DNA of 28,415 bases from a virus: IMG/VR virus record IMGVR_UViG_3300005293_000049, positions 1-28,415 of that record; one strand, written 5' to 3'. A model generated the notes under the pieces. The model ran no database searches, had not been told where the DNA came from, and saw nothing but the letters and a program-made list of their open reading frames with translations. How positions within the stretch are numbered: position 1 is the first letter of the stretch; each line of letters begins with the position of its first letter. Shown in pieces: positions 1 through 5,717 of the stretch. A program made the position numbers and the translations under genes.

Positions 1-11
1 CTTAAAAAATG

Positions 12-55
12 CCCCGGGGGAAAAATCCCGGGAACAATTCCGGATGATCCGGATC
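12..55. repeat. GC palindromes, possible leftward terminator
   Basis: A CCCGGG/CCCGGG hairpin (13-18 with 27-32, loop 19-26) is followed by a second palindrome GATCCGGATC at 46-55. Read on the minus strand, the first hairpin is followed by ATTTTTT, which is the layout of an intrinsic terminator for leftward transcription. On the plus strand there is no T-run after it. What lies to the left of the window is unknown, so the role is only a suggestion. Confidence 0.35.
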
Positions 56-270: not shown

Positions 271-406
271 CAGCCCATGTAGGCTTTAAACGGTACCTAG
301 AGCTCCTAGTCTCCGGTCTTCCGGGTCGACCGTGAGAGACTTAGTTGTTCAAACAGGCAGTTGGCGCTGCTGAGCACTAGGTACCGCTTAAGGCCTACAT
401 GGGCTG
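271..406 (+). ncRNA. Structured RNA candidate A, multibranched with a long closing helix
   Basis: A gene-free element with a nearly perfect helix. Bases 271-284 pair with 393-406, 285-289 continue with 388-392 (one G-U), there is one A-C mismatch (290/387), and 291-300 pair with 377-386. Inside, GCTC 302-305 pairs with GAGC 372-375 and encloses three hairpins: 306-344 (CTAGTCTC/GAGACTTAG, extended by CGGTC/GACCG), 346-355 (TGT-TCAA-ACA) and 357-370 (GCAG/CTGC). The plan matches that of the element at 544-668. It is not a canonical tRNA: the arms are too long and there is no proper T-arm. Strand is assigned from the flanking genes only. Transcription is not shown; a DNA-level role such as a packaging site is the alternative. 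Confidence 0.6.
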
Positions 407-411
407 ACCAC

Positions 412-516
412 TTTTGCCTGTAGATGGAATGCCGGTTTAACTCATCGGAAATCTCATCTTACGACACGATCGTAGATTGCCAAATCACCAAACCGGCATT
501 CTTTCCATAGGCAAAA
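412..516 (+). ncRNA. Structured RNA candidate B, long hairpin between A and C
   Basis: TTTTGCCT (412-419) pairs perfectly with AGGCAAAA (509-516). After a small internal loop, ATG 424-426 pairs with CAT 506-508 and GAATGCCGGTTT (427-438) pairs perfectly with its complement at 490-501. The apical part holds a minor hairpin TACGA/TCGTA (460-464/470-474). It does not resemble A and C in sequence, but its 5' strand is the ACTTTTGC motif that also follows A and C. No reading frame of useful length is present. It could be an RNA or a DNA cruciform. Confidence 0.5.
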
Positions 517-543
517 ACTATACCTAAACTACTACACAACTGC

Positions 544-668
544 GTAGGATCTTCCCGAAAGGGTACTAGTTCTCACAATATGTAAGGCTCTTAAACCTTA
601 CACTCCTTTCAAGAGGCGGATTGCTCAGAATCCGTTCGAGACCTAGTGCCCTTTCAGTGAGATCCTAC
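544..668 (+). ncRNA. Structured RNA candidate C, homologue of A
   Basis: The closing helix is formed by GTAGGATCT 544-552 with its complement 660-668, followed by 557-569 with 643-655 (13 pairs, one G-U). TCTC 571-574 pairs with GAGA 638-641 and encloses hairpins 581-587/596-602 (TGTAAGG/CCTTACA), a small CCT-TTCAAG-AGG (605-616) and CGGATT/AATCCG (617-622/629-634). Arm order, the TTCAA-containing middle hairpin and the 3' flank (CCTACATAGCCTGACCACTT) match element A, while most stem bases differ. That is the pattern expected of compensatory change in a folded RNA. No tRNA T-arm or anticodon arm is evident. Function unknown. Confidence 0.6.
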
Positions 669-766: not shown

Positions 767-1033
767 ATGAAGAAATTGCTAGCCACTTTTGCCTTGGCCG
801 CAACACTGGCCATTGGCGGAACCGCTTTGTCGGCTACGCCCGCATCGCTGACCACACCGAAGGCTGAAGCAGCCACCTACTCGCAGTGTTTCACGGCGAT
901 GAACGGTGAACGATGGTGCTACCGAACCGGATGCACCTTCTGGGAATGGGCTGGAGGATGCCGAGATGGTTGGGTTCGAACAAACACTTGGTACGCACGC
1001 GGTGCTCACCAAATCCTCGGCATCTACGCGTAA
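767..1033 (+). CDS. Small secreted four-cysteine protein
   Basis: An 88-residue protein starting at ATG 767 behind a GGGGG-type ribosome site. Residues 1-35 look like a Sec signal peptide: a KK n-region, a hydrophobic core (LLATFALAATLAIGG) and an AEA-A cleavage site near residue 35/36. The predicted mature part, about 53 residues, is rich in Trp, Tyr, Gly and Arg and has four cysteines (in YSQC, RWC, TGC and GGC), enough for two disulfides. Such a product would be exported across the host membrane. It lies between the structured RNA region and the small terminase. No family is recognised. Superinfection exclusion, wall interaction or a bacteriocin-like role are all possible; none is shown by the sequence. 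Confidence 0.75.
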   Translation: MKKLLATFALAATLAIGGTALSATPASLTTPKAEAATYSQCFTAMNGERWCYRTGCTFWEWAGGCRDGWVRTNTWYARGAHQILGIYA

Positions 1034-1071: not shown

Positions 1072-1482
1072 ATGGCGGGCCCCGGTCGACCAAGAAAGTC
1101 TTCAGCACTCGTATCTCAGTCTCGTAAAGTTTATGAGTCAGAGATTGAACCTGAAGAAAAGCCCCAAAGGCGAATGCCTCTTGCCCGAACACCAGAAGCA
1201 CGAGAAGCACAACTTGCTGCTCTTGCTTATGACTTGGCTGAGAAGCAATTCCTAGATGGCACGGCCTCGTCACAGGTAACGGTTCATTTCCTTAAGGTTG
1301 GTTCAACCCTTCAGAAGCAAGAGCTTCAGAAGCTTAAGCAGGAAACACTACTCGTCGAGGCTAAGGTCAAGGATCTCGCCAATGTCGAAGAGATGAAGAA
1401 GCTCTACGTGGAAGCAATGGACGCTATGCGCGGCTATGCAGGACATGAGACAGGCGTGACAGATGACCCGAACATTTTCTGA
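1072..1482 (+). CDS. terS: Putative terminase small subunit
   Basis: A 136-residue protein starting at ATG 1072, nine bases after a perfect AAGGAGG. It is highly charged. The N-terminus is basic and probably disordered (GRPRKSS), then a helical segment from about residue 40 to 65 (PEAREAQLAALAYDLAEKQF), then a heptad-like helix (about 75-120, rich in Leu, Lys and Glu) that would suit oligomerisation, and an acidic tail. Size, composition and the position directly before an HNH nuclease and upstream of the large terminase fit a small terminase that recognises the packaging site and forms a ring. No helix-turn-helix motif is sharp enough to prove it, so the call rests partly on context. Confidence 0.6.
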   Translation: MAGPGRPRKSSALVSQSRKVYESEIEPEEKPQRRMPLARTPEAREAQLAALAYDLAEKQFLDGTASSQVTVHFLKVGSTLQKQELQKLKQETLLVEAKVKDLANVEEMKKLYVEAMDAMRGYAGHETGVTDDPNIF

Positions 1483-1897
1483 GCTAATGGAGCTCACTTC
1501 CTTTGAGGATCGGTTTGAATACCTAAGTCTCAAAGGTGTAGTAGGCGAATCCACATTCGGATTCGAACGCCACCTCAACCAGAAGTTCTATACCTCGAGA
1601 GAATGGCGTCTGACTCGTGATGCTGTCATAACTCGTGACTACGGTTGTGATCTGGCCATGCCCGGCTTTGAGATCTACACCCGGATTCTTATTCATCACA
1701 TGAATCCCATCACTCCTGAAGACATAGTGCACGGTAACGTGGACATTCTTGATCCGGAGTATCTGATCTCCGTAACCCACAGAACCCACAATGCAATTCA
1801 CTACGGCGACAAACATTTACTGGCACTACCAGTTGTTGTACGTCGTCCCGGTGATACTCGTTTGTGGGGAAACCAAACACTAAGGAGCGTAGCATGA
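1463..1897 (+). CDS. HNH endonuclease
   Basis: A 144-residue protein that overlaps the small terminase by 20 bases. The core has the HNH layout: SREWRLTRDAVITRDYGCDLA (about residues 45-65), then the strand with LIHHMNP (about 76-82) supplying the first histidines, then TPEDI, and LISVTHRTHNAIHYG (about 100-114) with the Asn and the metal-binding His. HNH proteins next to terminase genes assist cleavage of concatemeric DNA during packaging in HK97-like phages, and that role is inferred here. A free-standing homing nuclease is the alternative. The ribosome site before 1463 is weak; ATG 1487 is another possible start. Its stop overlaps the next start as ATGA. Confidence 0.85.
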   Translation: MTRTFSELMELTSFEDRFEYLSLKGVVGESTFGFERHLNQKFYTSREWRLTRDAVITRDYGCDLAMPGFEIYTRILIHHMNPITPEDIVHGNVDILDPEYLISVTHRTHNAIHYGDKHLLALPVVVRRPGDTRLWGNQTLRSVA

Positions 1898-3947: not shown

Positions 3948-3962
3948 AAAGGAGGGTTGGCG

Positions 3963-5717
3963 ATGGGACTATCTAACACAGCAACACCTATCTACTATGG
4001 CAAGTTTCGAGAGAAAGTGCTTAGTGGAGAGATCCCAGTATGTCGAGAAATCGAAGCTGAGATGAACCGGGTTGATGCTCTCATCGCCGACCCTCGTTAC
4101 TACTATGACGACTTGGCGATCAACGGCTTTATCTCCTATTGTGAGAATGAGCTAACACTAACTGATGGATCTGACTTTCACATGCTTGATAGTTTCAAGC
4201 TTTGGGCTGAGCAGATCTTCGGTTGGTGGTACTTTGAAGAAGAAAGCGTCTACATCCCTTCCCCCGACAACCATGGTGGACAGTTTGTACGACAATCGGT
4301 AAAGAAGCGACTCACGGTGAAGCAGTATCTAATCGTGGCTCGTGGCGCAGCAAAGTCAATGTACGCCGAGTGCATTCAAAGCTACTTCCTAAACGTCAAC
4401 ACTACTACTTCGCATCAGATCACTACAGCGCCAACAATGAAGCAAGCTGATGAAGTCATGTCGCCCTTCCGAACTGCAATCACGCGCTCGCGGGGACCAC
4501 TGTTTAGGTTCCTTACTGAGGGATCAATACAGAACACTACCGGCAACAAGTTGAACCGGGTCAAGCTCGCGTCAACGAAGAAGGGTATCGAGAACTTCCT
4601 TACTGGATCACTCCTCGAAGTCCGACCCATGAAGGTGGACAAGCTACAGGGTCTCCGACCAATGATCTCTACGGTCGATGAGTGGCTCTCTGGTGACGTT
4701 CGTGAAGATGTTGTCGGCGCAATTGAGCAGGGTGCTTCTAAGCTAGGTGAAGGTAACTATCTGATTGTTGCCATCAGCTCAGAGGGGACTGTTCGTAACG
4801 GCAGTGGCGACACTGTCAAAATGGAACTAGCCGACATTCTCAAAGGTGATACCTATGCGCCCTTCATCTCAATCTGGCACTACAAACTCGATGAACTCGA
4901 GGAGGTGCCTGATCACCGCATGTGGCCAAAGGCTCAGCCGAACATCGGACTCACAGTTTCCTATGAAACTTACCAGCGAGATGTCGATCGTTCTGAGGCA
5001 GCACCTGCATCGCGGAACGATATCTTGGCTAAGCGCTTCGGAATTCCCATGGAGGGCTATACGTACTTCTTCCCCTATGAAGAGACGGAAGTCCATGACT
5101 ATGTTCCAAACTACTGGAACCTACCTTGTGCTATGGGAGCCGACCTCTCACAGGGTGATGACTTCTGTGCCTTCACTTTCCTTTTTCCTCTTCGTAATGG
5201 AAGGTTCGGAATAGTAACTCGCAGTTACATCTCCGAGAACACTTTCTTTAAGCTATCTAGCGGTCCTCGTCAGAAGTATGAAGAGTTCATTGCCGAATCA
5301 AGTCTTCACGTTCTCCCCGGAGTAGTGCTTGACATGATGGCCGTCTATGATGATCTGGAAGCCTTCATTGAGAAGGAGCAATACGACGTTAGAGCTCTAG
5401 GCTTTGACCCGTACAACGCAAAAGAGTTCATCACTCGGTGGGAAACTGAGAATGGTCCATTCGGTATTGAGAAGGTGCCTCAGGGTGCCCGAACCGAGTC
5501 GGTTCCTCTAGGCGAACTTAAGCATTTGTCCGCTCGACGAGAACTCCTCTTCGATCAGACACTCATGAGCTACGCCATGGGCAATGCCATCACTATTGAG
5601 GATACTAACGGTAACCGTAAGCTTCTCAAGAAACGACATGACCAAAAGATCGACAATGTGTCCGCACTAATGGATGCATATGTCGCATACAAAGCGAATA
5701 AGGAGAACTTCGAGTGA
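3963..5717 (+). CDS. terL: Terminase large subunit
   Basis: 584 residues from ATG 3963, six bases after GGAGGG; a TTG at 3957 is the alternative. An N-terminal ATPase domain has a Walker A variant VARGAAKS (about 125-132) and a Walker B region MISTVDEW with Asp-Glu at about 239-240, followed by the coupling segment IVAISSEGT. The C-terminal RNase H-like nuclease begins at MGADLSQGDDF, with the first metal-binding Asp near residue 394; GFDPYN near 478 is the later acidic strand. It powers DNA translocation into proheads and cuts the concatemer. It is separated from the presumed small terminase by about 2.5 kb of lysis and connector genes, which is unusual. The GTG start of the next gene overlaps its stop codon. 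Confidence 0.95.
   Translation: MGLSNTATPIYYGKFREKVLSGEIPVCREIEAEMNRVDALIADPRYYYDDLAINGFISYCENELTLTDGSDFHMLDSFKLWAEQIFGWWYFEEESVYIPSPDNHGGQFVRQSVKKRLTVKQYLIVARGAAKSMYAECIQSYFLNVNTTTSHQITTAPTMKQADEVMSPFRTAITRSRGPLFRFLTEGSIQNTTGNKLNRVKLASTKKGIENFLTGSLLEVRPMKVDKLQGLRPMISTVDEWLSGDVREDVVGAIEQGASKLGEGNYLIVAISSEGTVRNGSGDTVKMELADILKGDTYAPFISIWHYKLDELEEVPDHRMWPKAQPNIGLTVSYETYQRDVDRSEAAPASRNDILAKRFGIPMEGYTYFFPYEETEVHDYVPNYWNLPCAMGADLSQGDDFCAFTFLFPLRNGRFGIVTRSYISENTFFKLSSGPRQKYEEFIAESSLHVLPGVVLDMMAVYDDLEAFIEKEQYDVRALGFDPYNAKEFITRWETENGPFGIEKVPQGARTESVPLGELKHLSARRELLFDQTLMSYAMGNAITIEDTNGNRKLLKKRHDQKIDNVSALMDAYVAYKANKENFE

Follow-up and report, generated by a model that had tools for sequence, protein, structure and literature searches.

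A widespread structured RNA family with an anti-Shine-Dalgarno-like loop motif upstream of the gp1 and HNH genes of tailed phages

The window analyzed here is an entire virus record of 28,415 bases (IMG/VR record IMGVR_UViG_3300005293_000049). It opens with a cos-type left-end sequence, and a similar start is also found in the complete linear genomes of the Arthrobacter phages DevitoJr, Egad, Giantsbane and Gordon; cluster AU Arthrobacter phages have 9-base 3' cos ends (PMC5513430). Past a gap holding three long hairpins (elements A, B and C), the gene order of the window is that of those Arthrobacter phages (gp1 - HNH - endolysin - ... - TerL - portal - protease/capsid). The features are as follows.

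1..28, plus strand: left-end (cos-type) sequence CTTAAAAAATGCCCCGGGGG..., with a near-identical start in Arthrobacter phage genomes
263..413, listed on the plus strand, no wobble strand bias in the family: element A, closing helix of about 35-43 bp, head with TCCGGG and TTGGCG, 8 distinct relatives
412..516, listed on the plus strand, no wobble strand bias in the family: element B, long hairpin, 6 distinct relatives, the relatives with CACCGG..GATCGT..TGCCGACGCG
544..574, plus strand: element C, 5' arm of the closing helix (fold, covariation)
581..602, plus strand: element C, hairpin H1, stem 581-587/596-602 (fold)
603..615, plus strand: element C, near-invariant motif CTCCTTTCAAGAG, containing CUCCUUUC; CUC/GAG pairing possible
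616..635, plus strand: element C, variable hairpin H3, with CUGUCGG or UUCG loops in several relatives
638..668, plus strand: element C, 3' arm of the closing helix (fold, covariation)
767..1033, plus strand: small ORF of 88 aa, Cys-containing and apparently secreted, between C and gp1 in this clade
1072..1482, plus strand: gp1 (phrog_4259), the gene linked to element C
1463..1897, plus strand: HNH endonuclease (phrog_4321), its gene associated with both gp1 and the RNA
3957..5717, plus strand: terminase large subunit (PF20441, phrog_9)

From its position, one might guess that gp1 is a candidate small terminase. Pfam, PDB sequences and PDB folds gave no support for gp1 as a recognised small terminase; its AF2 model had no match in the PDB, no recognised RNA- or DNA-binding fold was found in it, and a weak BFVD match to the small terminase of phiKT was obtained (E 0.42). 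The small ORF at 767-1033, which has an unusual ribosome-binding site (RBS; CGGGGGT), has comparable ORFs in loci L007, L012, L034 and L035. Within positions 1-1100, a promoter scan found no plus-strand sigma-70-like promoter, and no plus-strand site with the GC stem and trailing T run of an intrinsic terminator was present.

The first-pass annotation had described two homologous cloverleaf-like RNAs in the gap, at 271-406 and 544-668. Both are real, as folding energies compared to dinucleotide shuffles gave z = -9.6 and z = -9.1, respectively (0/200 shuffles as good), with inverted-repeat arms of 35 nt and 31 nt. The fold was found in place as described, including the small hairpins, the 3' flanks that match each other, and the inner stems GCTC/GAGC (302-305/372-375) and TCTC/GAGA (571-574/638-641). 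A third long hairpin between them (element B; 412-516, 27-nt arms, z = -8.1) had been missed, and the arms of element A reach further (263-413) than 271-406. ARAGORN found no tRNA or tmRNA genes in the window, in agreement with the earlier statement that the elements are not tRNAs. A search of the window and 31 related loci against Rfam 15 gave no matches at the gathering threshold and, below it, only unrelated eukaryotic miRNAs and similar hits.

The supposed homology of 271-406 and 544-668 applies to part of each element. The 3' arm plus flank of A and C are related (z 7.3), also in locus L013 (z 4.3); this relatedness comes mainly from the flank, the 3' arm alone giving z 1.5. The heads, on the other hand, are unrelated (z -0.5), and each has separate relatives in other phages. 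At E<1, covariance models of the 544-668 family did not detect 271-406 in the window. A single RNA family comprising A and C was thus rejected on account of the heads and kept for the end of the 3' arm plus flank; duplication of a helix end with exchange of the head would give such a pattern. Meaningful covariation accordingly lies within each family and not, as had been proposed, between the two copies. Left ends of Arthrobacter-type phages carry several different long-stem elements in tandem (A, B, C, D and E).

The members of the C family in Arthrobacter phages, IMG/VR contigs and the phages Eevee and Damascus share a common plan, i.e., a long closing helix, an A-rich linker, H1, CTCCTTTCAAGAG, the variable H3 and the return strand. 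Across the family the closing helix is imperfect (median arm 31 nt), and its pairing is conserved while its sequence is not. The heads of actinophage members have, in addition, two flanking hairpins and a CUC/GAG mini-stem, and their helix shows a recurrent internal mismatch (C.A and U.U, two pairs apart).

Significant covariation, the absence of which had been set beforehand as grounds for abandoning a structured RNA, is present in the 544-668 family. In a MAFFT alignment of 13 sequences, 15/28 pairs showed two-sided changes, and none of 500 shuffles equalled the covariation. A model-fitted alignment of 30 sequences, which is biased towards structure and includes one row that is a minus-strand false match, showed two-sided changes in 26/28 pairs, and the number of compensatory cells was 219 as compared to 60 in shuffles and to 44 or 49 when partners were slid by 1 or 2 columns. 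Because of this leaning and the false row, we consider the MAFFT alignment the cleaner test. Compensatory pairing was also observed in the short internal hairpins of C, and an independent set of Clostridia prophages showed two-sided changes in 20/39 predicted helix pairs. Element C of the window scored 77 bits with covariance model R1 and 75 bits with R2, scores that are not independent, its sequence being among those from which both models were built. R1 recovered members absent from its training set (e.g., L047, L116 and L186) and R2 found further ones, the E-values of these models being rough. Overall, 544-668 is a member of a widespread structured RNA family. This family apparently has been undescribed until now; element C was absent from the open-access literature that was searched.

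To assign a strand, we used a strand-symmetric score in aligning the arms and sorted mismatches into plus-strand G.U and minus-strand G.U (i.e., A.C on the plus strand). In the closing helices of 86 clusters of C (sequence clusters below 75% identity, not a phylogeny), plus-strand G.U wobbles numbered 206 and minus-strand wobbles 43; 67 clusters leaned towards plus, 5 towards minus and 14 were tied. Mismatches of the U.U type also outnumbered A.A mismatches (25 vs 9). Families A, B, D and E from the same phages, by comparison, showed no wobble bias (33 vs 29). These counts indicate that C works as RNA, from the late-gene strand, and, given the plus-strand G.U excess, as neither a DNA cruciform nor a minus-strand transcript. 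Together with the covariation, they strongly support the structured RNA proposed for 544-668; the cruciform that had been offered as another option is disfavored there by the strand bias and may hold for the families of 271-406 and 412-516, which lack that bias. A strand-specific mutation bias is an unlikely source of the G.U excess, as families A, B, D and E, few as they are, do not show it. A minus-strand reading with GAAAGGAG as a Shine-Dalgarno sequence was likewise rejected, since the wobble bias is against it and no regular start codon follows GAAAGGAG.

Element C lies at the same place in the left ends of Arthrobacter phages and was also found in IMG/VR contigs, Curtobacterium phage Eevee and Microbacterium phage Damascus; among named phages, similar elements occur in Lactococcus CHPC971, Faecalibacterium FP_oengus and Bifidobacterium BitterVaud1 (variant ACTCCTTACA). 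The family was found in 136 of the examined loci (86 sequence clusters). The many soil and gut bacteria whose phages or prophages carry it include Arthrobacter, Curtobacterium, Microbacterium, Lactococcus, Faecalibacterium, Lachnospiraceae and Ruminococcus; two of the hosts, Arthrobacter sp. ATCC 21022 and Lactococcus lactis, are common laboratory strains. An RNA kept across such distant hosts probably serves something basic in the phage life cycle. In Arthrobacter phage Zeina (L020), the first annotated CDS (283-624) starts within the RNA element (179-319), and the start of this gene is probably misannotated.

The linkage between C and gp1 was assessed by scans that did not use the loop motif as well as by one that did not use gp1. 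When the 260 nt preceding gp1 were scored for their best inverted repeat regardless of motif, 56/139 loci exceeded the maximum of 414 control windows. Similarly, a motif-free search found a long inverted repeat at most 700 nt upstream of gp1 in 58/63 prophage loci on bacterial contigs as compared to 9/189 controls; the 63 loci came from Lachnospiraceae, Ruminococcus, Oscillospiraceae, Eubacterium, Bacilli and a few bins labelled Bacteroidota, the host labels of metagenome bins being possibly wrong. Pattern-based scanning of 2.9 million viral contigs, in which gp1 was not a criterion, provided 53 loci for analysis, 42 of which had the long helix; gp1 or HNH lay downstream on the same strand in 40 of these 42, and the remaining two loci stop 476 and 68 nt past the motif. 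Among the 11 loci without the helix, gp1 was missing in 10. Genes have been inserted between C and gp1 in several phages, so that the two are separated by anything between some tens of bases and 3 kb. Every complete C element found was accompanied by gp1. Conversely, gp1 is not strictly dependent on C, since gp1-bearing phages of Streptomyces, Gordonia and Rhodococcus showed no match to models R1 or R2. In Gordonia phage Tanis (L192), a long hairpin close to the left end (92-172) lacks the CTCCTTTC motif.

The most constant part of the head is CUCCUUUC, which is identical to the 3' tail of 16S rRNA (the anti-Shine-Dalgarno sequence) and complementary to GAAAGGAG. Of the whole element, only this sequence is retained among hosts whose G+C content differs widely. 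Among 56 loops of at least 15 nt, chosen without reference to the motif, CTCCYT was present in 54 and its reverse complement in none, as compared to an average of 2.9 in shuffled loops; the commonest 8-mer, CTCCTTTC, was present in 50/56 loops. In predicted folds, the mean unpaired probability of the motif was mostly 0.5-0.8, and in actinophages its CUC can pair with GAG, so that part of the motif is hidden. The base preceding the motif is U in 46/56 loops, compared to C in the CCUCC of 16S rRNA, and the identity with 16S rRNA may therefore be a coincidence. The loops of several Clostridia prophages (L194, L196, L208, L210 and L217) contain the motif twice (e.g., CCTCCTTTTACCTCCTTTCA).

Masking of the Shine-Dalgarno sequence of the next gene was considered as a general mechanism and rejected. 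In the window, the RBS of the next gene (767..1033), CACGGGGGT, is not complementary to CUCCUUUC; many gp1 RBSs of actinophages match the motif over 4 nt only; and variant motifs (CUCCCUU in L090, L226 and L235) are not compensated in the RBS. Only the Clostridia prophages were supportive, their gp1 RBSs pairing more strongly with CUCCUUUC than other RBSs bearing a Shine-Dalgarno sequence (median -10.8 vs -9.1 kcal/mol; P = 5e-5), which may simply reflect a strong Shine-Dalgarno sequence or a strong first gene. A switch between the 5' arm and the loop motif was also rejected, the complementarity (median -4.1 kcal/mol) being close to that in shuffles (-4.0 kcal/mol).

Tentatively, we favor an explanation in which the packaging/late module has C as its leader RNA, whose anti-Shine-Dalgarno-like loop makes contact with translation initiation. 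Element C, which has the cos-type left end on one side and the gp1-HNH-...-TerL module on the other, would be a structured leader of the packaging/late transcript, and might be freed as a small RNA by cleavage within the long helix. Its CUCCUUUC would pair with Shine-Dalgarno sequences, or be recognised by the factors for the 3' end of 16S rRNA, and these contacts could tune translation of the packaging/late genes. Since masking of the next start is not a general rule, action in trans or a ribosome-facing role appears more likely. Of the roles listed in the first-pass annotation, the anti-Shine-Dalgarno-like motif in the loop makes a regulatory one the most plausible.

It is possible, if somewhat unlikely, that C is instead a packaging-associated RNA which binds gp1 or another part of the motor and aids cos recognition or motor assembly, with the loop as a protein-binding site; such an RNA would act like phi29 pRNA without being related to it. 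The association with gp1-HNH in the gp1-independent scan (40/42, the other two loci ending early) is consistent with such a role, as are the proximity to cos in many genomes, the long closing helix with its branched head, and the retention of C despite the insertion of whole genes before gp1, as for a trans-acting RNA of the module. The same linkage would be expected for a leader, however, and a packaging role would leave the identity of the motif with the 16S tail a coincidence; several gp1 phages (those of Streptomyces, Gordonia and Rhodococcus) also lack a match to the models, and gp1 itself lacks a recognised RNA- or DNA-binding fold. We consider it distinctly unlikely that C serves processing or stability, i.e., that the long leader hairpin is an RNase III site and/or a 5' shield of the late mRNA and that the loop motif has another purpose or none. 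The closing helix, which is about 31 bp long and conserved in its pairing alone, the recurrent internal mismatch in actinophages and the tandem long-stem elements with different heads would all suit this explanation, which does not account for a sequence-invariant, exposed CUCCUUUC across hosts.

Two further explanations bear on the motif and on the inverted repeats. An RNA decoy against host defences or toxins directed at the anti-Shine-Dalgarno region or double-stranded RNA would explain why the motif equals the 16S tail and why the extra elements (A, B, D and E) come in variable sets. In its favor we also counted MazF-mt11, a toxin cutting at the 16S anti-Shine-Dalgarno sequence (PMC12274833), and the structured RNAs from the terminase region of staphylococcal phages that are sensed by CBASS cyclases (cabRNA, PMC10686824). 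Nevertheless, the cut site of MazF-mt11, CACCU, is missing from element C, no defence partner was identified, and both the near-universal presence of C and its strict association with the packaging module point to a core rather than an accessory function, which makes a decoy improbable. A DNA element, such as a cruciform or a terminase-binding site near cos, might be suggested by the location and by the inverted repeats as such, and the absence of wobble bias in A, B, D and E would fit either function at the DNA level or numbers too few to tell. For C itself, the excesses of plus-strand G.U and of U.U over A.A described above, as well as the compensatory pairing in the short internal hairpins, render this explanation highly improbable.

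Among known systems, the pRNA of phage phi29 is, like C, a phage-encoded RNA near the left end of the genome in which a long helix closes a branched head. The phages carrying C differ from phi29 in having an HK97-type TerL, cos ends and an HNH gene; no phi29 pRNA match was found by Rfam in the window, insofar as the library holds pRNA models, and we know of no counterpart in phi29 pRNA of the defining CUCCUUUC motif. Leader RNAs and small RNAs with anti-Shine-Dalgarno sequences resemble C in that its loop is complementary to Shine-Dalgarno sequences and lies upstream of an operon; unlike these, C has no conserved complementarity to the adjacent start, has a very long helix and is confined to one phage module. 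The 3' end of 16S rRNA (helix 45 and the anti-Shine-Dalgarno sequence within the leader-trailer helix of pre-rRNA) is comparable to actinophage C, where a hairpin is followed by CUCCUUUC near a long closing helix. The resemblance is short, however, the motif of C is mostly preceded by U, H1 is absent or different in low-GC members, and no sequence homology was demonstrated. The cabRNAs (PMC10686824) are also structured RNAs from the terminase region in late-gene sense, but they lie inside the coding sequence of terS/terL and have no sequence in common with one another; C occupies an intergenic position, and its structure and motif are conserved.

More broadly, and as an unlikely generalization, C could be a core RNA of a lineage of cos-type tailed phages (in Actinobacteria, Firmicutes and possibly Bacteroidota) that mimics the 16S 3' end within a pre-rRNA-like helix and either couples the translation machinery to the onset of packaging or joins packaging together with gp1. 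The C family offers an entry to the timing of late/packaging genes in such phages, bears on whether RNA takes part in packaging beyond phi29-like phages, and raises the question of why a viral RNA would display the 16S-tail sequence.

Other features were observed in the left ends. Element D, a long stem adjoining the cos end with a conserved GGGCTAGGGGCCACGACCCGAA, was found in L004 (45-144), L006 (47-144), L007 (242-335) and L110 (937-1077), without wobble strand bias. Element E, also a long stem, was found in L004 (148-251), L005 (168-274) and L018 (171-278), with a conserved AGGTCTCAGA in its head (TTAGGTCTCAGAG). Left ends that have otherwise diverged share a strongly similar structured insertion, GGTACTAGGGCAAGTTTCCTAAACGTG...TTAAGAACGAGGCGACGCTACGCGCCTACTC (L004 342-482 and L013 353-522, also L024 and L025), which had no Rfam match and looks like a small mobile non-coding element. 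Finally, repeats of the ACTTTTGC type lie 3' of the long hairpins (in the window at 394-424, 664-694 and 695-725; CCTACATnGnCTGACCACTTTTGC and TTTTAACTTTTGCC) and recur in relatives, where they may represent protein or promoter sites.
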